From: Chromatiales bacterium
GTDB lineage: Bacteria; Pseudomonadota; Gammaproteobacteria; SpSt-1174
Direction of reading: 5' to 3'
Assembly: GCA_014762505.1 (NCBI GenBank)
Contig: JABURS010000010.1
Location: 1 to 38,670 of the forward strand
DNA length: 38,670 nucleotides
How positions within the stretch are numbered: position 1 is the stretch's first letter; each line of letters opens with the position of its first letter. Positions 3,648-34,462 of the stretch are shown here, piece by piece. Both the position numbers and the translations under genes were made by a program. The notes under the pieces were generated by a model. It saw only the letters and a list, made by a program, of their open reading frames with translations, searched no databases and was not told the origin of the DNA.

Positions 3648-4934
3648 ATGAAAACCACAGTCATTGGATTCGGTGCGGGTTCTCCTGCGATCAGGTCGGC
3701 GACCAGGACGGGTCTCCTCTCGATGTTTCTCGGCATCTTCGCCCTGTTGTCCGCCCTGCCGGTACAGGCGGCCCAGGGGGTCACGGGCGATACCATCCGC
3801 GTGGCCGGTGTCATGGACCTGGAAGGGCGTTCACGCGGCCTGGGGCTCGGGATGAAGCGCGGTATCGAGGCGGCCTTTGCCGGGCAGCGCGTGCGGGGCT
3901 ATCGCATCGAGTACGTCACCCTGGATGATTCCTATACGCCGGAGAAGACCATCGAGGCCACGCGCTCGTTGCTGGATCAGGACGTCTTCGCCTTCGTCGG
4001 CAACGTCGGCACACCGACCGCCAAGGTGGCCCTGCCGTTGCTGGCGGAACGCGGCGTGCCGGCCGTCGGATTCTTCACCGGTGCGGGACTGTTGCGGCCC
4101 GGTGTGGGTGACGTGGTGAACTTCCGCGCCAGTTACGTGCAGGAGACGGCCGAGGTCATCAACAAGGCCATCGACGCCGGGGTGCCGGTCACCGGGATCT
4201 GCGCCTATGTGCAGAACGACGCCTATGGCATGGCCGGGGTGGAAGGCATCCGCCAGGCGCTGTCCGGTCGTCCGGGTACGCGCAACATCATCGAGGCACT
4301 CAACCGCATCATCGACATGGAAGGCGAGGATCCGCCGCGCAACGGCATCGGTCCGGTCGGCGTGTATCAGCGCAACACCTTCGTCTCGCGCGACGGCTAT
4401 GACTCCCTGAAGGCCTGGGAGGCGGGCAATGGCGTCCGCTGCCAGGTGGTCGTCAGCGTCGGCACCTACAACTCGATCGCGCGCTTTGTCGGTTACTCGC
4501 GTTATCGCGGCGACGACTGGATCGTGAGCGCCGTGTCCTTCACCGGGGCGGACGATTTTCGCAAGGCACTGGACGATCTCCAGGTGCATGACCGCGTGGT
4601 CATGACCCAGGTGGTGCCGCCGCTGGACTCGGATCTGCCCATCGTCGCCCAGGCGCGCAGGGCCCTGGGCGATGACTTCGGCTACGTGACCCTGGAAGGC
4701 TATATCGTCGGCCAGATGTTCCTGGCCGCCCTCGAGCAGGTGGAGGGGCCGATGACGCGGGAAAATTTCCTGCGCGCCGTGCGTGGCAAGGTCCTCGACG
4801 TGGGCGGGCTCTCCCTCGACTTCCGGCGCGACAACCAGGGTTCGGACCTGGTGGTCTCGACCTATCTCGACGGCGGCGAGTACCGCGCCATGACGTCCGG
4901 CGACTGGCGTCGCCTGATTGCGGCCGGCCGCTAG
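3648..4934 (+). CDS. Periplasmic branched-chain amino-acid-type substrate-binding protein
   Basis: A 428-residue protein with an N-terminal signal peptide (hydrophobic GLLSMFLGIFALLSALPV, probable cleavage after VQAA near residue 42). The mature part is a type I periplasmic binding protein of the LivJ-like family (Peripla_BP_6). It begins GDTIRVAGVMDLEGRSRGLG and contains FVGNVGTPTAKVALPLLAE and VPAVGFFTGAG. Such proteins normally deliver ligands to ABC transporters, yet no permease or ATPase gene is nearby. The gene lies between the CheW gene and the PilJ-like receptor gene, 42 bp before the latter. The inference is a ligand-binding co-receptor that docks on the receptor's periplasmic domain. 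An upstream in-frame ATG (3093) overlaps the CheW gene; 3648 was chosen for the signal peptide and a GGGAAG ribosome site. Confidence 0.92.
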   Translation: MKTTVIGFGAGSPAIRSATRTGLLSMFLGIFALLSALPVQAAQGVTGDTIRVAGVMDLEGRSRGLGLGMKRGIEAAFAGQRVRGYRIEYVTLDDSYTPEKTIEATRSLLDQDVFAFVGNVGTPTAKVALPLLAERGVPAVGFFTGAGLLRPGVGDVVNFRASYVQETAEVINKAIDAGVPVTGICAYVQNDAYGMAGVEGIRQALSGRPGTRNIIEALNRIIDMEGEDPPRNGIGPVGVYQRNTFVSRDGYDSLKAWEAGNGVRCQVVVSVGTYNSIARFVGYSRYRGDDWIVSAVSFTGADDFRKALDDLQVHDRVVMTQVVPPLDSDLPIVAQARRALGDDFGYVTLEGYIVGQMFLAALEQVEGPMTRENFLRAVRGKVLDVGGLSLDFRRDNQGSDLVVSTYLDGGEYRAMTSGDWRRLIAAGR

Positions 4935-4976
4935 TCCGGCGTCCTGCCCCATGAATGCCCATCACGGAGACCTGGC

Positions 4977-6863
4977 ATGAACATCATCGAACGGTTCAAT
5001 CCCATACGTCGGCTGCGCATCGGCTTGCGGCTCATGGTGCTGATCGCGGCCCAGATCCTGATCCTGATGATCATCGGCGTGGCCGCGATCACCGGTCTGC
5101 AGTTCGCGGCCTCCACGACCGGCGAGCTCAACGAGACGGTGTCCGAACAGGTGCAGCTCAACCGCATCGCCACCGTGGTGCAGGGCGGGCTGCTCGGTAC
5201 GGCCAACGACGTCTATCGTGGCACCATCACCTGGGGTGAGGCGAACAGGCGGCTGGCCGAGTCGCAGCAGGCCTTCGACCAGCGCTGGGCGGAATACGTG
5301 GAACAGACCGGCCGGCGCGACGAGGCCGCCACGGCACCACTGCAGCAGGGCATGAACGGTGTGCATGCCGCCTTTGCCGAGCTGACCAAGCTGATCGCGC
5401 GCGAGGACCGCGCCAACCTCTCGCTCTACGTGCTCAACGACCTGGATGCCTCGGTGGCGCCCTTCCTCACCCGCCTGGAATCACGTATCGCGGCCGGTCA
5501 GCAGGCCTCGCAGGAACAGTTCGCGGCCTCCACGGCGGCCAACGCGGCCTTTCTCTACGGGGCCCTGGCGCTGGTGCTGATCGGCGGGCTGTTTGCCGCC
5601 CTGCTGGGCTGGGTCATCTACCGTTCCATCGTCAACCCGATTCGCGATATCGCCGACACGGTGGAGCGTATCTCGGAGGGGGATTACAGTGCCCGTACCG
5701 ACGTGGTCTCGCACGACGAACTGGGCGACCTGGCGCAGGCCTTCAACAGGCTGCTGGATGAGCGCGTGAATGCCCTGGTCAAGGCCGAACGGGAGAGCGA
5801 GCGACTCAACAACTCGGTCATCGGCCTCATCAAGGCGGTGAGCCAGCTGGCGCAGCAGCGTGACCTCACCGTGCGCGCCCCGGTCTCGGAAGACATCACC
5901 GGTGCCATCGGCGACTCCCTCAACCTGCTGGCCAACGAGACCGCGAACATCCTGCTCGGTGTGCGCGAGATCTCCCACCAGGTGGCGCAGGTCTCCCAGC
6001 AGGTGAAGAGCCAGTCCGACACCGTGATCGAGGTGGCGCGCCAGGAGTATGACGAGGTGCTGACCACGGCCGATCTCCTGCGCCAGTCGGTGAATGCCAT
6101 GGCACACATCGCCGAGGACGCGCGCCTGGCCAACGAGCGTGCCGACCGTGCCTCGAAGAACACCGACGAGGCCGCCGAGTCGGTCATCAAGTCGGTACAG
6201 GGTATCAACTCGATTCGCGAGACCATCAGCGAGACGGAAAAACGCATCAAGCGCCTGGGCGAGCGTTCCCAGGAAATCACCGGGATCGTCAACCTCATCG
6301 GCAGCATTGCCGAACGCACCCATATCCTCGCGCTCAACGCCAGCATGCACGCGGCCTCCGCCGGCGAGGCCGGGCGCGGCTTCGCAGTGGTGGCGGACGA
6401 GGTGCAGCGCCTGGCGGAAAACGCCCGCGAGGCCACGGCCCAGATCTCGACCCTGGTGAACAACATCCGCGTGGAGACGGCCGATACGGTGCAGACCATG
6501 AACCTCGCGATCACCCAGGTGGCGGAAGGTACGCGTCTGGCCGAGCGGGCAGGCGACAGCATGCGGCAGACGCGCGCGGCCACCGAGGAACTGGTGTCCT
6601 CGGTGCAGCAGATCGCCACCAGTTCGGATGCCCAGGCCTCCGCCAGCCGCGCCTTGCTCGAGCGTGCGCGACAGATCCAGTCCAGTACCGAGAAGACGGG
6701 CAAGGAGCTCCAGGCGCAGACCCAGAGCACCGAGGCGCTGGTGCGGTTTGCCGACCGTCTCGTGCAGGCCATCGGCGTGTTCCGCCTGCCGCAGCCCAGG
6801 ACCGAGAAGTTCGGTGATACGCAGCAGATCGAATCCATGGATGAGGCACGCCGGGTCGGCTGA
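4977..6863 (+). CDS. Methyl-accepting chemotaxis receptor, PilJ-like
   Basis: A 628-residue membrane receptor. TM1 (about 18-42), a periplasmic helical domain (43-190), TM2 (191-216), a HAMP domain (about 213-265), a second HAMP-like linker (about 283-330) and a long cytoplasmic coiled coil. The signalling tip (about 441-481) reads IGSIAERTHILALNAS, then MHAASAGEAGRGFAVVADE. This differs from the classical tip (QTNLLALNAAIEAARAGE) as in PilJ-type receptors, with THI for TNL and SMHAAS for AIEAAR. There is no CheR-tethering pentapeptide at the C-terminus, and no cheR or cheB gene in the window. It probably senses ligands directly or through the binding protein encoded just upstream and signals to the CheA homologue 23 bp downstream. 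Confidence 0.92.
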   Translation: MNIIERFNPIRRLRIGLRLMVLIAAQILILMIIGVAAITGLQFAASTTGELNETVSEQVQLNRIATVVQGGLLGTANDVYRGTITWGEANRRLAESQQAFDQRWAEYVEQTGRRDEAATAPLQQGMNGVHAAFAELTKLIAREDRANLSLYVLNDLDASVAPFLTRLESRIAAGQQASQEQFAASTAANAAFLYGALALVLIGGLFAALLGWVIYRSIVNPIRDIADTVERISEGDYSARTDVVSHDELGDLAQAFNRLLDERVNALVKAERESERLNNSVIGLIKAVSQLAQQRDLTVRAPVSEDITGAIGDSLNLLANETANILLGVREISHQVAQVSQQVKSQSDTVIEVARQEYDEVLTTADLLRQSVNAMAHIAEDARLANERADRASKNTDEAAESVIKSVQGINSIRETISETEKRIKRLGERSQEITGIVNLIGSIAERTHILALNASMHAASAGEAGRGFAVVADEVQRLAENAREATAQISTLVNNIRVETADTVQTMNLAITQVAEGTRLAERAGDSMRQTRAATEELVSSVQQIATSSDAQASASRALLERARQIQSSTEKTGKELQAQTQSTEALVRFADRLVQAIGVFRLPQPRTEKFGDTQQIESMDEARRVG

Positions 6864-24361: not shown

Positions 24362-24904
24362 TCATCCCCCGCCCAGCAGGGCATCGCGCAGGCGGTCGGA
24401 GAGCGGCCGCTCTCCGAGCCAGATGCCGAGGTAGGTGCGGGCGAAGTCCTCGCCCTCGATGCGGATCAGTGCCGTGTCGTTCAGCGCGAGCTCGGTGCCC
24501 GCGCCGGGCGCATAGCACAGGCGGTAGCGGTCGCCTTCGGCCACGTCGCGATAGGCCGCATGCAGGGCGTCGATGCGCGGGCGCAGCGGGGTGAGTTCCT
24601 CGTGCTGGCGGGCGAGGATGCGCTCGGCGGCCAGGACGAACTTGTCGCGGTCGAGCCCGACGCGGTAGACGAGCTCCAGGCAGGCAGGGGCGCCGCTCGC
24701 GAGCAGCTCGGGGGCGGGGGTCTGCGCGGGGCCATACAGGGCCGCGTCGTAGACGTGGATGAGGCGGGCGTAGTACACATCGCCCGTGCCCTTGAGCTCC
24801 AGCACGGTATCGCCGACCGCCTGCGTCGGGAGGAACACCCCGGTATCGGCCCGGGTGTTGCCCGCCATCCCCAGCAGCACCAGCAAGAGGACGAGGCGCC
24901 TCAT
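24362..24904 (-). CDS. Chalcone-isomerase-like exported protein
   Basis: A 180-residue protein with a signal peptide (LVLLLVLLGMAGNTRAD). The mature part looks like the bacterial chalcone-isomerase-like family: LELKGTGDVYYARLIHVYDAALYG at its start, CLELVYRVGLDRDKFVLAAE, YRLCYAPGAGTELALND and a C-terminal FARTYLGIWLGERPLSDRLRDALLGG. Members are usually not true chalcone isomerases; their role is unknown, perhaps lipid binding. It is the last gene of the minus operon that starts at 30404. Its ATG overlaps the preceding stop by four bases (ATGA). It has no terminator of its own before the tRNA gene. Confidence 0.88.
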   Translation of the reverse strand: MRRLVLLLVLLGMAGNTRADTGVFLPTQAVGDTVLELKGTGDVYYARLIHVYDAALYGPAQTPAPELLASGAPACLELVYRVGLDRDKFVLAAERILARQHEELTPLRPRIDALHAAYRDVAEGDRYRLCYAPGAGTELALNDTALIRIEGEDFARTYLGIWLGERPLSDRLRDALLGGG

Positions 24905-25212
24905 GTCCCGGCCCCCGCCTGCATGATCTCCACGGTATTGCCCTCGCTGTCCTGGATGTAGACCGAGCGGGTGCCGTCGCGGTGGGTGGTGAGGGCGCCG
25001 AAGCGGGCGGCATCCGGGTGGGAGAGCGCAAGATGCGGCGGGTGTTCGGCCGGTATCACCAGGGCGAGGTGGATGTTCGCCAGGCGCAGCAGGGCCCAGG
25101 TGGGGTCGCGATAGACCACCTCCAGGCGGAAGTGCTGGCGATACCAGTCCAGCGCGCGGTCCAGGTCCTCGACCTGGATGGCGACGTGGTGCAGGGCGTC
25201 GAGTGCGGGCAT
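24901..25212 (-). CDS. VOC-family (glyoxalase-like) protein
   Basis: A 103-residue single-module vicinal-oxygen-chelate protein. The start LHHVAIQVEDLDRALDWYRQ has the usual first-strand His. Later parts are YRDPTWALLRLANIHLALV and the end SVYIQDSEGNTVEIMQ, with the metal-ligand-like Glu. Enzymes of this fold act as metal-dependent isomerases, dioxygenases or resistance proteins; a dimer would be needed for a full site. The function here is unknown. It lies 3 bp after the DUF3833 stop and overlaps the next gene. Confidence 0.85.
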   Translation of the reverse strand: MPALDALHHVAIQVEDLDRALDWYRQHFRLEVVYRDPTWALLRLANIHLALVIPAEHPPHLALSHPDAARFGALTTHRDGTRSVYIQDSEGNTVEIMQAGAGT

Positions 25213-25215
25213 GCC

Positions 25216-25755
25216 TCAGCCTCCGGGTTTCTGGAAGAACAGGGTCACCTCGCCCAGGCGGATGCCGAACTTGCGCATGGTCGCCCGGTTGACCAGCACC
25301 CCGTCCTCGTGCAGGAACATCCAGTCGTCGAAGTGCACCTGGTAGGTCTTGCCATCCACCTCGAGCGCCAGGGTGTAGCGCCAGTTCAGTGCCTGGCCGT
25401 AGGCGATGCCCTCGGCCGTGCCCACCACGTCGTCGGCGCGGCCCTCGTAGCGGTGTGCGTCGAGCCGGCGGATGCGCCAGATGCGCTGGCTCTCCTCGCC
25501 GTCCCGCCAGTGGAAGTCCTCGGTGAGCACCAGCTCGTCGCCCTGCATCTCGCCACGGATGTCGACCGTGAACTGGCGTTTCACCTCGCCGTTGCGTCCC
25601 TGGAAGATGCCCCAGGCACGTGTCTCGCCCAGGAAGTAGTCCTCCAGGACGAATTCGGGCGTGGTGCCGGCGTAACGCTCGGGGTTCACGCTACAGCCCG
25701 TCAGGAGCAACAGCAGCAGGACGGCGAGCCCTGCCAGGGTGTGTGGATGGCGCAT
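25216..25755 (-). CDS. DUF3833 lipoprotein
   Basis: A 179-residue protein with a lipoprotein signal (LAVLLLLLLTGC, lipidated C21). The rest matches the DUF3833 pattern, with LEDYFLGETRAWGIFQGRNG, RQFTVDIRGEM, LTEDFHWRDGE, ADDVVGTAEG and the C-terminal RKFGIRLGEVTLFFQK. Such proteins recur in clusters with DUF1365, Cfa-like and SDR genes (from memory). It is probably a lipid-binding outer-membrane or periplasmic protein, but this is not proven. ATG 25755 has GGAGG 6 bases upstream. Its first 65 bases overlap the end of the transporter gene in another frame. Confidence 0.9.
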   Translation of the reverse strand: MRHPHTLAGLAVLLLLLLTGCSVNPERYAGTTPEFVLEDYFLGETRAWGIFQGRNGEVKRQFTVDIRGEMQGDELVLTEDFHWRDGEESQRIWRIRRLDAHRYEGRADDVVGTAEGIAYGQALNWRYTLALEVDGKTYQVHFDDWMFLHEDGVLVNRATMRKFGIRLGEVTLFFQKPGG

Positions 25756-27052
25756 GGGAATCCTCCGGCGTGGGGTTGTCGGTATCGAGCCGCGGCAGGC
25801 GCCAGGCCAGTGCGCCTGCCGCCAGCTTGAAGAAGATGGGCAGCCCGCCGTAGAGCAGGCCCAGGGCCAGCGAGGGTTCCGGTCCGGCCTCGGGGTCGAG
25901 CCCGGCCAGCGCCAGCAGCGGGAAGGCGATGCCCACGGCCAGGGCCAGGGCGAGCTTGGTGACCATGCCCCAGAGTCCGAACCAGGCGCCGGCCCGGGGG
26001 GCGCCGTCGCGGGCCTGGCGGCGCATGGCGAGGTCGGCCTGGATGGAGGCTGGCAGGGCGAGGTCGGCGCCGAGGCCCAGCCCGGAGACCAGGCAGATGA
26101 CGAGGAACAGGCCGGCATCCCCGGGCCCCAGCCAGGGCACGGCAAGAAAGGCCAGCGAGGCGACCAGCATGGAGGCGGCCCAGGCGCGCGCCTTGTCGAT
26201 GCGCCGGGCGAGCCAGAGCCAGGCCGGCAGGGCCAGTACACCGCTGACGAAATAGGCCGCGAGCAGGCCGCCGGTCCAGCCCGGGGCCTGCAGGTTGTGG
26301 GTGACGAAGAGCAGGAACAGGGTGGCCGGCAGGCCGTTGGCGATGCCGTTGAGGAGATAGGCCAGCAGCAGGCGGCGTCCGTGCGTGTCGCGGCGCAGGG
26401 CCTGGAAGAGGGTGCGCCAGCCCCGCGTGGCGGTGGCCGGGCTGTGCAGGCGGGGCGCCGGCGGGACACGCCAGAGGGCGATGGCCACGGCCAGCGGCAG
26501 CAGCCACCACAGCAGGCCGGCGAACCGGGCCAGCGTGGCCCCTGCGTCCCCGGCGATACCGAATGCGGCGGGCAGGGCCACGGCCGCCAGGGTACCGAGG
26601 ATCATGGCCCCTTCGCGCCAGGCGGCCAGCCGGCTGCGCTGATGATAGCGGTCCGGGCCCTGCGGCAGTTCCGCCCCCCAGGCACCGTAGGGCACGCTGA
26701 TGAGCGTCCAGCCGAGGTAGGCCACCAGCGTCCAGCCGAGCAGGTAGAGCCCGCCCGGGCTGCCGTCCGGGCGAAACAGCGACTCGATGCCGAGCAGCAG
26801 CAGGGGCACGCCCAGGGCGATGAAGGCCTTGCGCCCCAGGGCATGCCCCCGGTCGCTGAGCAGGCCGATGAGCGGGTCGCTCAGCACGTCGAGGCTGCGG
26901 GCGAGCAGCAGCACCAGGCCTACCAGGGCCAGGGGCAGGCCCAGGTCCTCGGCGTAGAAGGTGGGCAGGTAGACATAGAGCGGCAGGCCCAGCAGGGCCA
27001 GGGGCAGGCCCGGCAGGCCGTAGGCGACCAGGACTGTGCCGCGCAGCGCCAT
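25691..27052 (-). CDS. MFS/GPH-family transporter
   Basis: A 453-residue membrane protein with about twelve helices. Features of the glycoside-pentoside-hexuronide (MelB-like) group include RSLDVLSDPLIGLLSDR after helix 2, LISVPYGAWGAELPQGPDRYHQRS and FVTHNLQAPGWTGGLLAAYFVSG in the second half. Transporters of this group occur in light/singlet-oxygen lipid clusters (from memory), but the substrate is unknown; a lipid or lipid precursor is one guess. The last 20 or so residues, proline- and arginine-rich, are encoded over the DUF3833 gene start and may be an unconstrained tail. It begins 6 bp after the Cfa-like stop. Confidence 0.9.
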   Translation of the reverse strand: MALRGTVLVAYGLPGLPLALLGLPLYVYLPTFYAEDLGLPLALVGLVLLLARSLDVLSDPLIGLLSDRGHALGRKAFIALGVPLLLLGIESLFRPDGSPGGLYLLGWTLVAYLGWTLISVPYGAWGAELPQGPDRYHQRSRLAAWREGAMILGTLAAVALPAAFGIAGDAGATLARFAGLLWWLLPLAVAIALWRVPPAPRLHSPATATRGWRTLFQALRRDTHGRRLLLAYLLNGIANGLPATLFLLFVTHNLQAPGWTGGLLAAYFVSGVLALPAWLWLARRIDKARAWAASMLVASLAFLAVPWLGPGDAGLFLVICLVSGLGLGADLALPASIQADLAMRRQARDGAPRAGAWFGLWGMVTKLALALAVGIAFPLLALAGLDPEAGPEPSLALGLLYGGLPIFFKLAAGALAWRLPRLDTDNPTPEDSHAPSTHPGRARRPAAVAPDGL

Positions 27053-27058
27053 GTGGCC

Positions 27059-28297
27059 TCAGTCGCCGGTCCGGGCCAGCGCCACCTGCATGACGTTGGT
27101 GCGGCCCAGGCGGAAGCCGGCCTCGCAGTAGGCGAGGTAGTAGTGCCACAGACGCAGGAAGCGCTCGTCGTAGCCAAGCCCGCGGATGCGGTCCTGCTGT
27201 GCCGTCACCGCCTCGTCCCAGCGGCGCAGGGTGAGGGCGTAGTCGTGGCCGTAGAAGTCGCGCGAGACGGTCTCCAGGCCCACGGCGGCCGCCTCGCGGT
27301 CGAAGGCCGCGACACTGGGCAGCATGCCGCCGGGAAAGATGTAGCGCTGGATGAAGTCCGGCCGGCGGCAGTAGTCGTGATAGCGCGCCTCGTCGATGGT
27401 GATGACCTGCAGGGCCGCGCGACCGCCGGGTTTGAGGCGGTGCGCGAGGGTGTCGAAATAGGTCGGCCAGTAGGCCTCGCCGACGGCCTCGAACATCTCG
27501 ATGGAGACGATGTGGTCGAAGCGCTGGTGCAGGTGGCGGTAGTCCCGCAGCTCCAGACTGACGCGGTCTTCCAGGCCTTCCTCGCGCACCCGGCGCCTGG
27601 CCCAGGCCAGCTGCTCGCGCGACAGGGTGATGCCGGTGACGCGAAAGCCCTGGCGGGCGGCGTGGCAGGCAAAGCCGCCCCAGCCGCAGCCGATCTCGAG
27701 GATGTGGTCGCCGGGACGGGCGTCGAGGCGGTCCAGCATGGTCTGGTACTTGCGTGCCTGGGCCTCGGCCAGCGGTTCGTCGGGGCGGGCGAACACGGCA
27801 GCCGAGTAGGTCATGGTCGGGTCCAGCCACAGCCGGTAGAAGTCGTTGCCGAGGTCGTAGTGGAAGGCGATGTTGCGGCGGCTGCCCGCGAGGCTGTTGG
27901 CGTTGAACAGGTGGCGCAGGCGGTCGGTCAGCCGCGCGGCGAGCCGGCCCTGCGCCAGGCCGGCGAGCTGCGGCTGGTTGAGGGCCAGCAGCTGCAGCGT
28001 ATCGGCCAGGTCGTCGGCCTCCCAGTCGCCGGCCATATAGCCCTCGGCCAGGCCCAGCGCACCGCGCAGCAGGACGCGACGGGTCAATGCCAGCGGTCGG
28101 TTGAGCTGCAGGTGTGCGGTGGGGCCGGGGTGGCGTTCGCCCAGCAGGTGGCGACTGCCGTCCGCAAGGCGCAGGTCCAGCTGTCCGGTCTGGATGCGCG
28201 CCAGGGCCGCCAGCAGGGGGCGGGCGGAAAGCGGGGGTTGTCCGGGGCGCGGGCCGGCCTGTGCCAGGCGCGAGCGGTCGACCTGTTCGTATGACAT
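27059..28297 (-). CDS. Cyclopropane-fatty-acid-synthase-like SAM methyltransferase
   Basis: A 412-residue Cfa-family protein. An N-terminal lipid-binding region (1-115) is followed by NIAFHYDLGNDFYRLWLDP, the SAM motif LEIGCGWGGFACHAA and DFIQRYIFPGGMLPS. It should methylate unsaturated acyl chains of membrane phospholipids. Two residues important in E. coli Cfa are not kept by my alignment: the Cys of YSCAYW is Ala (YSAAVF), and the His of LLHTIGS is Gln (ALQVITID). The Glu of the EMFEAVGE segment is present. This fits the Cfa-like subgroup linked to DUF1365 and FAD oxidoreductase, which may make products other than cyclopropanes. It starts on the DUF1365 stop (ATG/TGA overlap). Confidence 0.92.
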   Translation of the reverse strand: MSYEQVDRSRLAQAGPRPGQPPLSARPLLAALARIQTGQLDLRLADGSRHLLGERHPGPTAHLQLNRPLALTRRVLLRGALGLAEGYMAGDWEADDLADTLQLLALNQPQLAGLAQGRLAARLTDRLRHLFNANSLAGSRRNIAFHYDLGNDFYRLWLDPTMTYSAAVFARPDEPLAEAQARKYQTMLDRLDARPGDHILEIGCGWGGFACHAARQGFRVTGITLSREQLAWARRRVREEGLEDRVSLELRDYRHLHQRFDHIVSIEMFEAVGEAYWPTYFDTLAHRLKPGGRAALQVITIDEARYHDYCRRPDFIQRYIFPGGMLPSVAAFDREAAAVGLETVSRDFYGHDYALTLRRWDEAVTAQQDRIRGLGYDERFLRLWHYYLAYCEAGFRLGRTNVMQVALARTGD

Positions 28298-29079
28298 CAG
28301 CTGATCTCCTGTGCCGGTGGCTCGGGTTTGCGGTGAAAGCGCGCACCCTTGAGCCGGATCTTGAGTGCCTGCCAGTGGATGAGGGCCATGACCTTGAAGG
28401 TGAGAAAGGGAATGGAGATGGCCGCGCGCAGCAGCTCGGCCGTGGTAAAGGGGCGGCGTTCGCCCACCTGGGCGGCGGTCAGCATCAGCGACATCCCGCC
28501 GTCATCCTGCGGCGCGAACTCGCGGATCACCACCTGCAGGGTCTCCTCCGGTTCGCCAAGGCGGAAGTGATAACGCGCCTGCATGCCGATGAAGGGCGAG
28601 ACGTGGAAGTGCTTGTCGCGCTGCTGGCGCACCGGCCAGGCCATGGGCCGACCCTGCTCGTGCAGCAGGTAGCCGTGCTTCTCGCCGAAGGTGTTGCGCA
28701 CCTCGCAGAGCACGGCGCGCAGCTGCCCGTCGCGGCCATGGCAGTACCACAGCGCCAGCGGGTTGAAGACATAGCCCAGCACGCGCGGGAAGCACAGCAG
28801 GGTAATGCGCCCACCCTCGAGGTCGATGCCGTGGTCGGCGAGGATGCGCTCGATCCAGGGGCGCAGCGGCGAGCCGTCGCGCGGGCCGTGATCGCGGTCG
28901 TAGACGGCGAACAGGTTGGGCCGGTTGTGGGCAAACAGCCGGGAGCCGGCCGCCGCCTCGTCCAGCCGGTCGATGTCCAGCAGCAGCGAATAGACCCGGT
29001 AGGCGAAGCGGTAGCGCACCGGAAACAGGCGCCGGTGCATCACCTCGCCGCGGTAGAGGCTGGCGGCCGGGGTGTTCAA
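28297..29079 (-). CDS. DUF1365 protein, probable TTG start
   Basis: A protein of about 260 residues of family DUF1365. Conserved parts: ASLYRGEVMHRRLFPVRYRF near the start, LLLDIDRLDE, LFAHNRPNLFAVYDRDHG, LLCFPRVLGYVFNPLALWYC, GEKHGYLLHEQG and KHFHVSPFIGMQARYHF. Its biochemical activity is unknown, but it is nearly always found between an FAD-dependent oxidoreductase and a Cfa-like gene, as here. TTG 29079 overlaps the stop of the preceding gene (TTGA) and gives the expected N-terminus. ATG 29040 would remove the conserved ASLYRG segment. Confidence 0.88.
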   Translation of the reverse strand: MNTPAASLYRGEVMHRRLFPVRYRFAYRVYSLLLDIDRLDEAAAGSRLFAHNRPNLFAVYDRDHGPRDGSPLRPWIERILADHGIDLEGGRITLLCFPRVLGYVFNPLALWYCHGRDGQLRAVLCEVRNTFGEKHGYLLHEQGRPMAWPVRQQRDKHFHVSPFIGMQARYHFRLGEPEETLQVVIREFAPQDDGGMSLMLTAAQVGERRPFTTAELLRAAISIPFLTFKVMALIHWQALKIRLKGARFHRKPEPPAQEIS

Positions 29080-30404
29080 GAGGCCACCGCCTCGGGCACG
29101 GCGGCCGGCAGGGGGGTGTCCTGCCCGGTCTCGAGCCAGGGCGCCGTGATGCCGAAGCCTTTCTGTACCAGCTCCACCGAGCTGCGCAAGGCATCCTCGT
29201 GAAAGCCGTAGCCGGCATAGCTGCCCGTGAACCACAGCCGGTCGACACCCTGAATACAGCGCAGCTGCTGCTGGGCGCGCAGGGCCTGCAGGTCGAACAC
29301 CGGGTGATGGTAGGTCATCTCCTCGATCACGCTGCCCGTGGCCGGTTCACGCAGGGGATTCAGGCTCACGAACAGGTCCGGCACGCCCGCCTCCAGCCGG
29401 TGCAGGCGGTTCATCCAGTAGCTCACCGAGACGCGGTCGCCGCCGCGTCCGCCCTCGGCCAGGTAGTTCCAGGAGGACCAGACCTTGCGTCGCCGCGGCA
29501 TCAGCCGGGCGTCCGTGTGCAGCAGGGCATGATTGGCCTGGTAGCGGAAGGCGCCGAGCACCGCCGTCTCGGCAATGCTCGGGCGCTCGATCAGGGCCAG
29601 GGCCTCGTCGGCGTGACAGGCCAGCACGATCTCGTCGAAGCGGTGCAGCTTGTCGTCGGCAGTGCGTACCCAGGGACCGGTGTCGGCCCGGCCGACGCGG
29701 ATGGCCGGGCGATCGCTGTGTGCCTCGGGGCCGATGTCATGCAGCAGCCGGTTGACGTACTCGCGCGCGCCGCCGGTGACCGTGCGCCACTGGGGGCGGT
29801 TCTTCAGGTCCAGCAGACCGTGGTTGCGGAAGAACTGCAGGAAGCTGGTGGCCGGGAACTCGGCCATGGTGTGCGTCGGGCAGGACCAGATCGCCGCGGC
29901 CATGGGCAGCAGGTAGTGGTCGCGCAGGCGGCGGCCGAAGCGGCCGCGCCGGAGGTATTCGCCCAGGTTCAGGTGGTCCGCGTCCCCCGTTTCCAGCGAG
30001 CGCTTGGCCAGGCGGTTGAAGCGCAGGATGTCGGCCAGCATGCCCCAGTAGGGCGGGCTGGCCAGCTGGCGGCGCTGGGCGAACAGGGTGTCGAGGCTGG
30101 AACCCGCGTATTCCAGGCGGCCGTCGGCGATGGAGGCGGCGAAGGACATGTCCGTGGCCTGGGTCGGCAGGCCCAGGTGGGCAAACAGGCCGGTGAGGTG
30201 CGGGTAGTTGCGCTCGTTGTACACCACGAAACCGGTATCGATGCCCTGCGGGCCCAGCGGGGTGTCCACGGTCACCGTGTGGGTGTGGCCGCCGAAGTAG
30301 CGGTTGCGCTCGAACAGCGTCACGCGGTGCTCGCGGGCGAGCAGCCAGGCGGCGGACAGGCCGGCGATACCGGCGCCGATGACGGCGATGTGCTTGCGGC
30401 TCAT
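29076..30404 (-). CDS. FAD-dependent oxidoreductase (amine oxidase-like)
   Basis: A 442-residue flavoprotein. The N-terminal Rossmann motif IAVIGAGIAGLSAAWLL, acidic E32 and the GGHTHTV segment bind FAD. The later IDTGFVVYNERNYPHL, WSCPTHTMAEFPATSFLQFF and GVDRLWFTGSYAGYGFHEDAL match the NAD(P)/FAD-binding proteins found with DUF1365 and Cfa-like genes. It probably oxidises or desaturates acyl chains, together with the methyltransferase; related proteins were linked to furan fatty acid synthesis in Rhodobacter (from memory). First gene of the minus operon. ATG 30404 follows AAGGAG; an upstream in-frame start at 30479 lies beyond the promoter and was rejected. Confidence 0.93.
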   Translation of the reverse strand: MSRKHIAVIGAGIAGLSAAWLLAREHRVTLFERNRYFGGHTHTVTVDTPLGPQGIDTGFVVYNERNYPHLTGLFAHLGLPTQATDMSFAASIADGRLEYAGSSLDTLFAQRRQLASPPYWGMLADILRFNRLAKRSLETGDADHLNLGEYLRRGRFGRRLRDHYLLPMAAAIWSCPTHTMAEFPATSFLQFFRNHGLLDLKNRPQWRTVTGGAREYVNRLLHDIGPEAHSDRPAIRVGRADTGPWVRTADDKLHRFDEIVLACHADEALALIERPSIAETAVLGAFRYQANHALLHTDARLMPRRRKVWSSWNYLAEGGRGGDRVSVSYWMNRLHRLEAGVPDLFVSLNPLREPATGSVIEEMTYHHPVFDLQALRAQQQLRCIQGVDRLWFTGSYAGYGFHEDALRSSVELVQKGFGITAPWLETGQDTPLPAAVPEAVAS

Positions 30405-30429: not shown

Positions 30430-30460
30430 ATCTTATACAAGAGTTGTACAATATTGGCAA
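30430..30460 (-). promoter_or_regulatory. Promoter of the lipid operon with CarH-type 11-bp repeat operator
   Basis: On the minus strand TTGCCA (30460-30455), 17-bp spacer, TATAAG (30437-30432), a near-consensus sigma-70 promoter. Within it are two head-to-tail 11-mers, TTGTACAACTC (30451-30441) and TTGTATAAGAT (30440-30430). A bound protein would cover the spacer and -10. Transcription would begin near 30425, about 21 bases before ATG 30404. The element matches 23 of 29 positions with the SDR promoter at 33187-33215. It lies 40 bp from the ATG of the divergent glutathione peroxidase gene, which may be co-controlled. Confidence 0.75.
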
Positions 30461-30499: not shown

Positions 30500-31045
30500 A
30501 TGCCGATCCGTTACTTTCTGCTGCTCGCCGTGCTGCTGGCCGGTGGCCTGCCCCCGGTCCAGGCCGGCTGCCCCGATACCCTGGATTTCCATCTGCGCCC
30601 GCTGGCCGGGGAGACCCCGGTGCATCTCTGCGAGGCCTATGCCGGCCAGGTGGTGCTGATCGTGAACACGGCCAGCAAGTGCGCCTACACGCCACAGTAC
30701 GAGGGGCTTGAAAAGTTGTACGCTGAGTACAAGGACAGGGGGCTGGTCGTGCTGGGATTCCCCTCCAACGACTTCGGCAACCAGGAGCCGGGCGACGAGG
30801 CGGCCATCCAGGGCTTCTGCCGCATGACCTATGGCGTGCAGTTCCCCATGTTCGAGAAGACCCATGCCGCCGAGCGCAACGCCGACCCGCTCTACCGCCT
30901 GCTCGGCGAGCGGGCCGGGGAGTACCCGCGCTGGAACTTCCACAAGTACCTGCTGGATCGCGAGGGCCGCCTGATCGGCAGTTTCGCCAGCCAGGTGGGT
31001 CCGGAGGACCCACGCCTGCGCCGCGCCATCGAGGAGGCCCTGTGA
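30500..31045 (+). CDS. Periplasmic glutathione peroxidase-family thiol peroxidase
   Basis: A 181-residue protein with a signal peptide (FLLLAVLLAGGLPPVQAG). The GPx motifs are NTASKCAYTPQY (peroxidatic C61, not selenocysteine), FPSNDFGNQEPG (Q95) and RWNFHKYLLDREG (W145, N146). C107 in FCRMTYGVQFPMF is at the position of the resolving Cys of thioredoxin-dependent members. It should reduce hydroperoxides, possibly lipid peroxides, in the periplasm. Ribosome site GGAG precedes ATG 30500. It is divergent from the lipid operon across a 95-bp region holding the TTGTACAA operator, and its stop overlaps the next start. Confidence 0.93.
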   Translation: MPIRYFLLLAVLLAGGLPPVQAGCPDTLDFHLRPLAGETPVHLCEAYAGQVVLIVNTASKCAYTPQYEGLEKLYAEYKDRGLVVLGFPSNDFGNQEPGDEAAIQGFCRMTYGVQFPMFEKTHAAERNADPLYRLLGERAGEYPRWNFHKYLLDREGRLIGSFASQVGPEDPRLRRAIEEAL

Positions 31046-31782
31046 TGACGGATGTCGCAATGAAGGACGCGCTGCAGCGCGAGGCGGGAAAGGCCGAGGT
31101 GGTGGTGTTCCGCTCCGGGCTGACGGATACCCGCGCGCTGGGCGAGTGGCTCACGGCCGCAGGTGTGGCGCATGCCTTTGTCGACATGCCCATGGGGGAG
31201 GCGGGCGAGCGTGCCCGGTTCCACGCGCTGCGGGAGCTGACGGGCTGGCCGATGCTGCCCATGGTGTTTCATAACGGGGACTTCGTCGGCGGGGAGCGGG
31301 AGCTGCGCGCGCGCCTGGCGCCGGCAGATGCATCACGGGCCGAGGCGCCCTGGCCGGGCGTCACGCAGGCCTGGCTGCGGGGGCTGGGCTACGGCGGGCT
31401 CATCCCCTTCGTCGCCGCGGCGGTGGCCCTGGGGGTCTGGCCGGCCGGCCAGGGACTGCTGCTGCCGGCCCTGCTGGGCTACGCGGCGGTGATCCTGTGT
31501 TTTCTCGGTGCCGTGCACTGGGGGCGGGTGCTGGCCGCGCCCGGGCGGTCCGATGCCGTCATCCTTCTGGCCTGGGGTGTCACCCCGTCGATCCTCGCCT
31601 GGTGTGCGCTGCTGCTGCCGGCAGCCTACGGGCTTGCGGCCTTCATCCTGTTATTCGCCCTGGCCCTGGCGGTGGACCATCGCCTGCTCGGCGCCGGCCA
31701 TAGCGCCTACCTCTCCCTGCGCCGTCGCCTCACGGCCGTGGTGGCGGGGGTGCTGGCGGTGGCCTGGCTGCTGGTGGGGTGA
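31045..31782 (+). CDS. DUF3429 membrane protein with N-terminal glutaredoxin-like domain lacking cysteine
   Basis: A 245-residue protein. Residues about 15-92 look like a glutaredoxin fold: VVVFRSGLTDTRALGEWL, then TGWPMLPMVFHNGDFVGG, which resembles the cis-Pro and glutathione-binding segments of monothiol glutaredoxins. The active-site CxxC/CxxS is absent; the domain has no cysteine. Residues about 108-245 are a DUF3429 membrane domain with four to five helices (LGYGGLIPFVAAAVALGVW, YAAVILCFLGAVHWG). ATG 31045 overlaps the peroxidase stop (TGATG); GTG 31042 is an alternative. The pairing suggests a redox or glutathione-related membrane role; no function is assigned. Confidence 0.85.
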   Translation: MTDVAMKDALQREAGKAEVVVFRSGLTDTRALGEWLTAAGVAHAFVDMPMGEAGERARFHALRELTGWPMLPMVFHNGDFVGGERELRARLAPADASRAEAPWPGVTQAWLRGLGYGGLIPFVAAAVALGVWPAGQGLLLPALLGYAAVILCFLGAVHWGRVLAAPGRSDAVILLAWGVTPSILAWCALLLPAAYGLAAFILLFALALAVDHRLLGAGHSAYLSLRRRLTAVVAGVLAVAWLLVG

Positions 31783-31860: not shown

Positions 31861-32250
31861 TCACTCCTCACGCCCCAGACAGATCCCGTCGCGGCAGCGG
31901 CGGGTGTAGCGCCAACGGGCGAAGCGGCGGTAGAGGAGATCGATGAGGGGCAGGAGGTGCAGGGCGCTGACGAGCCGGGCCAGCCAGCGATAGCCCGGCA
32001 GCTCGCGCCAGATGGCGGCGAAGGCCCAGGCACCGCTGACCAGCCGGCCCTCGGCATCCAGGGCGTGCAGCCGGCGCATGGCCTGCTCGGGCGTCACCTC
32101 ATGGGCCTCCAGGGGCGTGGGGTCGGCGGCGATGTCCAGCCAGTGTACGCGGCCGTCGCGGTCGAGACGCCGGTAATGCGCGACTTCGCGCCGGCAGAGG
32201 GGACAGCTGCCGTCGTAGAACATGGTGGTCCGGGTGGCGGGGCGGTTCAT
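31861..32250 (-). CDS. DCC-family thiol-disulfide oxidoreductase (DUF393)
   Basis: A 129-residue protein with the family signature TTMFYDGSCPLCRREV (D13, C16, C19), then LDIAADPTPLEAHEVTPEQA and MRRLHALDAEGRLVSGAWAF. DUF393/DCC proteins have a thioredoxin-like fold and a CxxC; their substrates are mostly unknown. It is translated in overlap with the CarH-like regulator stop (ATGA at 32250-32247), so the two are a coupled pair under the regulator's promoter. Its presence adds to the redox character of the cluster. Confidence 0.9.
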   Translation of the reverse strand: MNRPATRTTMFYDGSCPLCRREVAHYRRLDRDGRVHWLDIAADPTPLEAHEVTPEQAMRRLHALDAEGRLVSGAWAFAAIWRELPGYRWLARLVSALHLLPLIDLLYRRFARWRYTRRCRDGICLGREE

Positions 32251-33188
32251 GTGCGCTCGTCGCGGTTCGCGAAGTGGTCGCGGATGTGGCGAATGGCGGT
32301 GGGGGTGTCGGTGCCCAGCGCCACGGCCCCGGCGCGGGTGATGGCATCGGCCGCGAGCACGGCGCTCTGGCCGCCGACGAAGACCGGGCCGTCCGTGGCC
32401 GCCACCAGGGCGCCCAGGTCGCGGCCGAAGCGGCTGTCCGTCTGGCCGGTCGAGCCGGACAGCAGTACGCCGTCGCAGCCGCTGCGCGGTGCGGCCGCCG
32501 CAAGGTCGTCCAGCGGCATGTCGGCACCCAGGATGACGAAACCCAGACCGTGGGCGCTGGCGGCCAGGCAGAACAGCAGCAGCCCCAGTTCATGGTGCTC
32601 GCCCGGCAGGCAGGCGGCCAGCAGGCGTGGGCGGGGGTTGCGCGTGGCCAGGTGATGCAGGCGCGCGCCGAGCTTGTTGCGCATGTAGGTGCCGAAGAAG
32701 TGCTCCTCGGCGATGCCGCCGGGCTGGTCGCGCCAGCGTTCGCCGAGTTCGCGCAGCAACGGGATGATGAGGTGATCGGTGACCACGTCCACCGGGTACA
32801 GCGACAGGGCCTCGTTGTAGCTGGCGTCCAGGGCCGCCTCGTCGAAGCGGGTAATGGCCCGGAGCATGCGCTCACGATGCGCGCGCCAGGTATCGGGCAG
32901 TCCCTCCTCCTCGACCGGTTCGCTGGCGAGCCGGGCAGGCACCCGGCTGATGGGCACGCCCCGGTTCACCAGGTCGACGACATGATTGATGAGGTCGATG
33001 TCGGCCTGGGTATAGAGGCGATGCCCCTTGGGGGTGCGATGGGGTGCGATCAGGCCGTAGCGACGCTCCCAGGCGCGGAGCGTCACGGCGTTCACACCGG
33101 TCAGCTGGGAGACCGTGCGAATCGGGAACAGGCCTTCCTGCTGCAGGTCGGCCTCGTCCCGGCCAGGGGATGCGGATATCGAGGTCAT
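32247..33188 (-). CDS. MerR-type transcription regulator with cobalamin-binding domain (CarH/LitR-like)
   Basis: A 313-residue regulator. The N-terminal MerR helix-turn-helix (about 21-90) reads FPIRTVSQLTGVNAVTLRAW, then RTPKGHRLYTQADIDLI. The C-terminal part is a B12-binding module with the CarH signature W-x9-EH (W152, E162, H163) in the helical cap and ExHxxG (E197, H199, G202) for the lower cobalt ligand. In CarH/LitR proteins adenosylcobalamin makes a DNA-binding tetramer that light breaks apart. The residue after W152 is Arg, where Thermus CarH has the His that ligates cobalt after light exposure (from memory). ATG 33188 starts the protein close to the HTH; no ribosome site is evident. 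It probably represses itself and the divergent SDR through the operator at 33196-33217. Confidence 0.93.
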   Translation of the reverse strand: MTSISASPGRDEADLQQEGLFPIRTVSQLTGVNAVTLRAWERRYGLIAPHRTPKGHRLYTQADIDLINHVVDLVNRGVPISRVPARLASEPVEEEGLPDTWRAHRERMLRAITRFDEAALDASYNEALSLYPVDVVTDHLIIPLLRELGERWRDQPGGIAEEHFFGTYMRNKLGARLHHLATRNPRPRLLAACLPGEHHELGLLLFCLAASAHGLGFVILGADMPLDDLAAAAPRSGCDGVLLSGSTGQTDSRFGRDLGALVAATDGPVFVGGQSAVLAADAITRAGAVALGTDTPTAIRHIRDHFANRDERT

Positions 33189-33250
33189 GGCAATCTTGTA
33201 CAAGTCTTGTATGATGATTCTATGCCAAAACCATGCAGTCTGTACAACAG
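33187..33250 (+). promoter_or_regulatory. SDR promoter with CarH-type 11-bp repeat operator
   Basis: ATGGCA (33187-33192), 17-bp spacer, TATGAT (33210-33215) form a sigma-70-like promoter for the SDR gene. The spacer and -10 contain the 11-mers TTGTACAAGTC (33196-33206) and TTGTATGATGA (33207-33217). A weaker third unit TTCTATGCCAA follows at 33218, and CTGTACAACAG at 33240 is in the same 11-bp register. The element matches the lipid-operon promoter over 23 of 29 positions. The regulator's own ATG (33188-33186) touches the -35, so its transcript must cross the operator and autoregulation is expected. Confidence 0.72.
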
Positions 33251-33264
33251 CGGGGGAACGAAAC

Positions 33265-34020
33265 ATGTCTGAGACACGCGTGGCCTGGGTGACCGGGGCG
33301 AGCGGCGGCATCGGCCGTGCCCTGTCGTTGCGCCTGGCAGGGCAGGGCTGGCAGGTGGCCGCCTCCGCCCGGGGAGAGGAAAAACTCCGCGAACTGGCGG
33401 CGCAGGCGGACGGCCGCGTGCAGGTGCATCCGCTGGACGTGACGGATGCCGCGGCCACCGAGGCCGTGGTGGCCGCGATCGAAGAGCAGCACGGCCCCAT
33501 CGAGCTGGCCGTGCTCAACGCCGGCGACTACCAGCCCATGCCGGCCGACGCGTTCGATGCCGAGCTGTGTCACCGGCTGATGACGGTGAACTACCTCGGC
33601 GTGGTGCACGGCCTGGCCGCCCTGCTGCGGCGCATGCGTGCGCGTGGGCGCGGCGAGATCCTCATCATGGCCAGCGTGGCCGGTTATCGCGGCCTGCCGC
33701 TGGCCGCGCCCTACGGTGCCACCAAGGCCGCGCTCATCAACCTGGCCGAGTCGCTGCGCGCAGAGCTCGGTCACGCCGGGGTGGTGATACGCGTGGTCAA
33801 TCCGGGCTTCGTGCGTACCGATCTCACGGCACAGAACGACTTTCGCATGCCGGCACTCATGCCGGTGGAGGCGGCGGCCGAGGCGATCGTCGCCGCCATC
33901 GGCGGGCGCAGCTTCGAGATCACCTTCCCCAAGCGCTTCACCTATGTATTGAAGGTCCTGCGCATGCTGCCCTATGCGCTCTACTTTCCGCTTGTCCGTC
34001 GCATGACGGGGCAGGGGTGA
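33265..34020 (+). CDS. Short-chain dehydrogenase/reductase
   Basis: A 251-residue classical SDR. NAD(P) motif TGASGGIG (10-17), LDVTD (57-61), LNAG (84-87), catalytic S137 (IMASVAGYRG) and Y150-x3-K154 (YGATK), followed by VVNPGFVRTDLT. It reduces or oxidises a carbonyl/alcohol; the C-terminal FPKRFTYVLKVLRMLPYALY is hydrophobic, perhaps for membrane or lipid contact. SDRs of this kind are usual partners of the Cfa-like/DUF1365 clusters, which suggests a lipid substrate. ATG 33265 follows GGGGGAACG. An upstream in-frame ATG at 33115 lies in the regulator gene and was rejected. The NTF2-like gene follows after 4 bp. Confidence 0.94.
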   Translation: MSETRVAWVTGASGGIGRALSLRLAGQGWQVAASARGEEKLRELAAQADGRVQVHPLDVTDAAATEAVVAAIEEQHGPIELAVLNAGDYQPMPADAFDAELCHRLMTVNYLGVVHGLAALLRRMRARGRGEILIMASVAGYRGLPLAAPYGATKAALINLAESLRAELGHAGVVIRVVNPGFVRTDLTAQNDFRMPALMPVEAAAEAIVAAIGGRSFEITFPKRFTYVLKVLRMLPYALYFPLVRRMTGQG

Positions 34021-34024
34021 GGGC

Positions 34025-34462
34025 ATGTCCAGCCAGCGACTGCAGCGTTATGCCGATTTCTTCGAGCAGCTGACGCCCGAGGCACTGGATGCCCTTGACC
34101 GCGTCCTGACCGGGGACGCCCGATTCAAGGACCCGTTCAACGACGTGCACGGCCTGCCCGCCATCCGCCGCATCTTCGCCCACATGTACGCGGTGACGGA
34201 GGCCCCGCGCTTCACGGTGCTGGGCATGGCGGAATCGGCCGATACCGGCTACCTGCACTGGGAGATGCAGTTCGCCCTGCGGCGCCGGCCGGCACGCATC
34301 TGGCGCATCGAGGGCATGAGCCGGCTGTGCTTTGCCGAAGACGGGCGGGTACGTGAGCACGTGGACTTCTGGGACCCGCTGGAATCCCTGCTCGCGCGCC
34401 TGCCGCTCGTCGGCGCCCTGTTCCGGCTGCCGGTGCGCCTGTTGCGCACGCCGCAGGCCTGA
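34025..34462 (+). CDS. NTF2/SnoaL-like protein
   Basis: A 145-residue protein of the nuclear-transport-factor-2-like fold. YADFFEQLTPEALDALDRVL leads to the typical FKDPFNDVHGLPAIRRIFAHM, and the end strand is VREHVDFWDPLESLLARLP. It has no signal peptide. Proteins of this kind travel with the SDR in photolyase/lipid clusters (from memory) and may bind or isomerise a small hydrophobic ligand. The gene is coupled to the SDR (4-bp gap, GGGGTGAGGG ribosome site) and so falls under the CarH-type operator. Confidence 0.88.
   Translation: MSSQRLQRYADFFEQLTPEALDALDRVLTGDARFKDPFNDVHGLPAIRRIFAHMYAVTEAPRFTVLGMAESADTGYLHWEMQFALRRRPARIWRIEGMSRLCFAEDGRVREHVDFWDPLESLLARLPLVGALFRLPVRLLRTPQA

Follow-up and report, generated by a model that had tools for sequence, protein, structure and literature searches.

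A probable UfaM methylase in a Chromatiales operon, with the active-site residues of its enzyme branch

The window analyzed here, a 38,670-nucleotide stretch of DNA from a Chromatiales bacterium (contig JABURS010000010.1), carries on its reverse strand (positions 27059 to 28297) a gene for a protein resembling cyclopropane fatty acid synthase (Cfa). This gene very probably encodes UfaM, the methylase for the first step in furan fatty acid synthesis, a level of confidence that applies to the identity of the enzyme and not to the nature of its catalytic base. The protein is an ordinary, well-placed further case of the published furan pathway, and its active-site changes, as judged from the sequences compared, are ordinary within the UfaM branch and not the oddity of a single protein. 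The activities of UfaM, UfaD, and UfaO have been published for R. sphaeroides and R. palustris, and R. sphaeroides UfaM is described as converting cis-vaccenate to 11-methyl-trans-12-octadecenoate (according to the available part of PMC7380195). In the pathway chemistry published for other species, UfaM begins with the SAM-dependent methylation of membrane phospholipid chains; the resulting C12 cation is quenched when chain C13, and not the added methyl, gives up a proton. The product is 11-methyl-trans-12-octadecenoate, which the FAD enzyme UfaD converts to a 10,12-diene. UfaO, the DUF1365 protein, then adds an O2-derived oxygen and closes the furan, and the furan fatty acid scavenges singlet oxygen. 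The likely product in the Chromatiales host, inferred from the gene content, is an 11-methyl-trans-12-octadecenoyl lipid and then a furan fatty acid.

The open reading frame is intact, begins with ATG, and encodes 412 amino acids with a Pfam CMAS (PF02353) match of 290 bits. As the original prediction had proposed, the SAM site is preserved (ILEIGCGWGG) and two residues differ from those of E. coli Cfa: in a phmmer alignment against 6BQC, with which MAFFT agrees, Cys139 corresponds to Ala166 and His266 to Gln297, the Cfa motifs YSCAYW and LLHTIG reading YSAAVF and ALQVIT. Two further replacements, Gly236 by Glu267 and His240 by Ala271, had been overlooked in that prediction. Glu239 (Glu270), Ile268 (Ile299), and Tyr317 (Tyr353) are unchanged. 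The predicted model of the protein (pLDDT of 84.1) has the two-domain Cfa fold, with Z scores of 37 to 38 to 5z9o, 7qos, and 6bqc; for E. coli Cfa (6bqc) the Z score was 37.0 and the rmsd 2.6 over 340 residues. In Cfa, Glu239, His266, and Tyr317 bind a bicarbonate that presumably accepts the ring-closing proton, according to the accessible text of PMC11387697. The Chromatiales protein has the Glu239 and Tyr317 of this ligand set, with Gln in place of His266, and so departs from the bicarbonate-binding pattern of cyclopropane synthases.

The predicted Cfa fold and the retention of Glu239, Ile268, and Tyr317 are also what would be expected of a cyclopropane fatty acid synthase that still functions despite the loss of Cys139 and His266. 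E. coli cells carrying Halomonas UfaM, in which one peak was assigned to 11-methyloctadec-12-enoate, contained cyclopropanes as well, and E. coli has its own cfa (as reported in the accessible part of PMC12089945). We nevertheless regard a cyclopropane synthase as very unlikely, since the bicarbonate ligand His266 named in the accessible text of PMC11387697 is Gln in every one of the 112 open reading frames that group with the protein and since the operon context and the co-occurrence with DUF1365 genes also speak against it. The host genome, moreover, encodes a separate canonical Cfa (L001) with Cys139, Gly236, His240, and His266 and a score of 418 bits against E. coli Cfa; cyclopropane synthesis in this organism thus has its own gene.

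The genes around the methylase make up a tightly packed run on the reverse strand in the order ufaD, ufaO, ufaM, MFS transporter, DUF3833, VOC, and chalcone isomerase-like, with overlapping stops and starts from ufaD through ufaM. The ufaD-type gene (29076 to 30404; ATG start) encodes an FAD oxidoreductase of 442 amino acids with Amino_oxidase and NAD_binding_8 domains, and its stop overlaps the start of the ufaO-type gene (28297 to 29079; probable TTG start). The latter encodes a 260-amino-acid protein with a PF07103 match of 281 bits, the only DUF1365 match in the genome, and its stop has one base in common with the ATG of ufaM. UfaD and UfaO homologs are thus present in the same genome as the UfaM-type gene. 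The FAD oxidoreductase had been called adjacent to the methylase; it does belong to the operon, but it lies two genes upstream, and the direct neighbor is the DUF1365 gene. Downstream, 6 bases past the ufaM stop, is the gene for an MFS_2 transporter-like protein (25691 to 27052), placed in the same gene order as in C. johrii (L038). It is followed by a DUF3833 gene (25216 to 25755; PF12915, 222 bits) of at most 179 amino acids, the uncertain start of which is an ATG inside the MFS gene, and, on the basis of domain matches, by genes for a glyoxalase/VOC-like protein of 103 amino acids (24901 to 25212) and a chalcone isomerase-like protein (Chalcone_3) of 180 amino acids (24362 to 24904). The chalcone isomerase-like partner is also found in the ufa clusters of Azoarcus and Cupriavidus. 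On the forward strand, domain matches identified an SDR oxidoreductase (33265 to 34020) and a SnoaL_2/NTF2-like protein (34025 to 34462), both of which also occur in the ufa clusters of Azoarcus, Cupriavidus, and Salinivibrio. Divergent from ufaD, across a candidate operator, is a forward-strand gene for a glutathione peroxidase (30500 to 31045; PF00255) with an N terminus that by eye is signal-like. A DUF3429 protein encoded at 31042 to 31782, also divergent from ufaD, has by eye a glutaredoxin-like start, and the pair looks like an oxidative stress neighborhood.

The combination of an FAD oxidoreductase, a DUF1365 protein, and a Cfa-like protein corresponds to UfaD-UfaO-UfaM as described in the available part of PMC7380195, which points to a methylated trans-unsaturated chain that leads to a furan. 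The earlier suggestion of a product other than a cyclopropane is therefore supported for its furan option, and a 10-methylene or 10-methyl product is less likely. Such a product would call for an enzyme of the BfaB/TmpB type, the 10-methylene chains of which would be reduced to 10-methyl chains by the FAD protein. BfaB and TmpB are likewise Cfa-like methylases with a redox partner, for BfaB an FAD protein (PMC7791843, in its accessible part); however, in a comparison by description only, the BfaB-pathway candidates of that source were picked for conserved bicarbonate-site residues and keep the site that the Gln266 protein does not, the DUF1365 partner fits UfaO, and the accessible part of PMC7791843 mentions no partner of the DUF1365 kind. 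We consider this reading even less probable than a cyclopropane synthase. The least probable of the readings considered is an enzyme like FufM that would methylate an already existing furan fatty acid. A Cfa-like methylase adjoining furan pathway genes would suit such a role, but the operon would then be without its first enzyme, and FufM (RPA0924), judged by its description in the available text of PMC7380195, is reported to be only 26% identical to UfaM.

The active-site residues were compared across 166 Cfa-like open reading frames from the loci of relatives, from Rhodobacterales and Pseudomonadota samples, and from E. coli, with some sampled regions picked by bit score so that both types were represented. 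In E. coli numbering, Gln266 was present in 112 of the 166; these 112 sequences all had Glu236, Glu239, Ile268, and Tyr317, and Ala240 was present in 111, with Ser in one. His266 was present in 53, with Gly236 in 48 and Glu236 in five, and with His240 in 52 and Ala240 in one; the one remaining sequence, a fragment (L019b), had a gap at this position. A two-group comparison left out the five Glu236/His266 sequences and the fragment (6 of 166), and because L013 and L242 are one gene, it included 111 distinct Gln266 rows; some Rhodobacterales genes occur both in the main sample and in the added named-locus set. Between these 111 rows and the 48 of the second group, positions 236, 240, and 266 were the only ones of 371 columns that were more than 90% conserved in both groups with different residues. 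Since the group labels were drawn from position 266, plus Gly236 for the second group, the independent findings are the Glu236 of the first group and column 240. Glu239 and Tyr317 were invariant in both groups.

The Chromatiales protein has the resulting Glu236/Ala240/Gln266 signature, a criterion that was derived here and is not a published one. We did not find the G236E/H240A/H266Q swap in print in the UfaM active-site literature that is open without subscription, and the words “bicarbonate” and “active site” are absent from PMC7380195 and PMC12089945. The lost residues, which the original prediction had treated as a special feature, are instead the normal state of a known enzyme branch, and its stress on the cysteine was misplaced. 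Position 139 varies across the branch (Ser in 93, Ala in 14, Cys in 4, and Gly in 1 of the 112 Gln266 proteins), so that the Cys change carries little information and was rejected as the key change. Chance or decay was likewise rejected as the source of the changes, because the signature is common to the clade, the tree places it in one clade, and Gln266 is shared by all of its 111 distinct proteins.

In a quick-mode tree, the 111 distinct Gln266 rows fell on one side of a branch with SH-aLRT support of 99; when nine rows were added and FastTree was used, support for this clade was only 0.707. Inside the clade are the enzymes of Cereibacter johrii (L119) and Luteovulum azotoformans (L122), and the Chromatiales protein thus shares a clade with the UfaM of C. 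johrii, which was used as a stand-in for the R. sphaeroides and R. palustris sequences. Both species are related to R. sphaeroides, C. johrii closely, and their ChrR proteins are 96% (C. johrii) and 89% (L. azotoformans) identical to its own; beside the chrR match of C. johrii is a ufaD-ufaO-MFS-DUF3833-SDR run that fits the five-gene RSP1091-1087 operon described in the available part of PMC7380195. Among the 80 ChrR loci returned, which did not include R. sphaeroides 2.4.1, a UfaD homolog was found in 75 and a UfaO homolog in 73. A Gln266 protein of 218 bits (L024) sits on a long branch in the clade, and an IMG/VR contig (L245) carries a UfaM gene close to the Rhodobacterales ones.

Two exceptions to strict coupling of the three residues were seen. 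A Methylophaga thalassica protein (L255), encoded at 4617 to 5855 on a plasmid, lies within the clade and has Gln266 with Gly236 and His240, which reads as a natural intermediate or a reversal as far as its sequence indicates; no DUF1365 is annotated near this gene in the stretch shown. The second exception is formed by the five Glu236/His266 sequences, which also have His240 and constitute a deep, separate branch of the tree. Together with the fragment L019b, these five make up a third Cfa-like type (the second Cfa-like open reading frame of L012, L019, L189, L192, L202, and L242), which has the motif E-M-x-E-H at 236 to 240 and, where covered (L019b has a gap), F-x-H-x-F at the 266 motif. 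Open reading frames of this type occur near the ufa operon in some genomes of the same class.

The association of the signature with the other pathway genes extends well beyond the window. Within 3 kb and on the same strand, 71 of the 112 Gln266 genes have a UfaO homolog, 71 have a UfaD homolog, and 70 have both, compared with none of the 48 canonical genes having either. A UfaO homolog is absent within 3 kb for the other 41 Gln266 genes; these counts include many loci with just 1.5 kb of flanking sequence, as well as R. sphaeroides-type species, where ufaM lies apart. Cupriavidus, Rhizobium tropici, Rhodococcus, Streptomyces, and Salinivibrio have their own versions of the ufa cluster, the R. 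tropici cluster being near a sigma factor and ChrR and the Salinivibrio cluster with a photolyase, and Azoarcus KH32C has the order MerR, FAD, DUF1365, Cfa, chalcone, MFS, DUF3833, SDR, and NTF2. Glu236/Ala240/Gln266 was found in all six of these named operons. Among 299 Pseudomonadota genomes, 94 have a DUF1365 match, and all 94 also carry a UfaM-type gene (Fisher P of ~5e-59, kinship being ignored). A UfaM-type gene is present in 113 of the 299, the label being given at ≥249 bits to the Chromatiales protein and the sequences having been read for 78 of the 113; since the 218-bit Gln266 protein L024, from outside this sample, indicates that such proteins can fall below the cutoff, the 113 may be an undercount.

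The DUF1365 match is missing in 19 of these 113 genomes. In two of the 94 genomes with a DUF1365 match, the match is only a C-terminal fragment (G189:C7:9069-9203 and G340:C42:246657-246818) just ahead of a UfaM-type gene that seems to be intact, which looks like decay of ufaO. Family f89 supplies 10 of the 19, and the four f89 enzymes that were read (L185, L193, L200, and L205) have AIQYI at the 266 motif; another f89 genome, G334, has DUF1365 and the motif ALQII. In the f89 genomes without DUF1365, the methyl-alkene may be the end product.

The conserved replacements suggest that a protein carboxylate, instead of bicarbonate, acts as the base. In cyclopropane synthases, the bicarbonate pocket serves to deprotonate the methyl; loss of His266 would weaken that pocket, and in UfaM the task would pass to protein carboxylates, namely the newly gained Glu267 along with the invariant Glu270. 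The UfaM product calls for a proton to be taken from the chain, and the nematode UfaM homolog FCMT-1 does lose a deuterium from its chain substrate (PMC10876521). We tentatively propose, at somewhat less than even odds, that the UfaM branch swapped its bound bicarbonate for the built-in carboxylate Glu236, with Ala240 and Gln266, thereby shifting deprotonation from the methyl to the chain. Mutants of the bicarbonate ligands of E. coli Cfa have reportedly been described by Courtois and Ploux. By analogy with other methyltransferases, a protein carboxylate is plausible as the base, and Glu267 and Glu270 are both candidates. In coclaurine N-methyltransferase, E204 and E207 lie by the transferred methyl, E204A reduces activity to 4 to 6%, E207A retains 60 to 75%, and the base is proposed to be H208 (PMC6099451, in its accessible part); the spacing of E204 and E207 equals that of positions 236 and 239 in UfaM, an equivalence by spacing and not by residue alignment. 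In BezA, according to the available text of PMC12471008, Glu170 deprotonates the cation of alkene methylation, and its position corresponds roughly to residue 270, rather than 267, of the Chromatiales protein (phmmer range offsets, 184 to 300 on 83 to 200).

This placement of the BezA residue, the invariance of Glu239 and Tyr317 in both groups, and the Gly at position 236 in the Methylophaga protein all favor another arrangement, in which the base is Glu270, or a bicarbonate bound to Glu270 and Tyr353, and the role of Glu267, Ala271, and Gln297 is confined to forming a pocket that turns C13-H toward this base. The presence of Glu236 in the whole set of Gln266 sequences is, however, hard to explain as mere shape, and we give this arrangement the same, below-even chance as Glu236. 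If the swap to Glu236 were true, three residues would decide between cyclopropane and furan chemistry, with ring closure giving way to double-bond migration, and activity should be independent of bicarbonate. It would also provide a compact rule for whether this fold yields a cyclopropane or a methyl-branched alkene, and it would open a way to engineer branched or furan lipids.

Control by light is suggested by a reverse-strand gene (32247 to 33188) for a MerR-type regulator of 313 amino acids, class I LitR/CarH-like, with a MerR domain and both B12-binding domains; the NCBIfam CarH model gave 146 bits and did not reach its cutoff of 400, and the regulator is therefore called CarH-like only. 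A candidate LitR/CarH operator, TTGTACAACTCTTGTATAA (30433 to 30451, reverse strand), precedes ufaD, lying within the spacer and −10 of a promoter read by eye, TTGCCA-N17-TATAAG; a promoter scan called none ahead of ufaD. A second candidate copy, TTGTACAAGTCTTGTATGA (33196 to 33214, forward strand), lies between litR and the SDR gene in the same register to ATGGCA-N17-TATGAT. Both 19-bp sites are 11-bp-spaced direct repeats that start 3 bases past the −35-like hexamer (TTGCCA or ATGGCA) and extend into the −10. The pattern TTGTACAANTCTTGTATRA, composed after the two sites had been seen, has two exact copies in the window and, with as many as 2 mismatches allowed, did not occur in any of 100 shuffles; there are no copies elsewhere in the 2.77-Mb genome at ≤3 mismatches, and a reversed control had one match in the genome. 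The 11-bp repeat pattern is absent from the ufa loci of Azoarcus, Cupriavidus, Salinivibrio, and R. tropici, and a related repeat pattern had no match in L249, L250, L254, L008, or L149, which may mean that the site is peculiar to the Chromatiales lineage. From these features we infer that the ufa operon is probably turned on by light through a B12-type LitR/CarH repressor and that the two sites are candidate operators joining the ufa, litR, and SDR genes. A search of the host genome for ChrR control gave no Cupin_7 match, which is a weak test.

Public records label the genes of the six named operons as encoding cyclopropane-fatty-acyl-phospholipid synthase family proteins, and VC1122 of V. 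cholerae, which is blue-light induced, is discussed as a cyclopropane synthase in the accessible part of its source. Furan lipid formation may thus be hidden in annotation, and the three-residue test could tell UfaM-type genes from those of cyclopropane synthases.

Compared with E. coli Cfa and other cyclopropane synthases, the Chromatiales enzyme is alike in predicted fold, SAM site, and the residues Glu239, Ile268, and Tyr317, and it differs from E. coli Cfa in having Gln for His266, Glu for Gly236, Ala for His240, and Ala for Cys139. Its likeness to the known UfaM enzymes of R. sphaeroides (RSP2144) and R. palustris (RPA2569), which likewise have UfaD and UfaO as partners, was judged via C. 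johrii, whose enzyme is in the same clade and has the same signature. In R. sphaeroides, ufaM is apart from the RSP1091-1087 operon and is induced through the ChrR system, whereas in the Chromatiales host ufaD, ufaO, and ufaM share an operon, with a B12-type LitR gene nearby. A regulatory parallel is provided by Pseudomonas, in which, according to the accessible part of PMC9758184, ufaM is light induced and linked to class II LitR; that cluster, with class II LitR and LOV, likewise has an FAD oxidoreductase, ufaM, an SDR, LitR, and TGTACA operators. Unlike the class II LitR of Pseudomonas, the host regulator keeps both B12-binding domains, as in class I, and its candidate sites are 11-bp-spaced direct repeats, in contrast to the TGTACA-N12-TGTACA of Pseudomonas.
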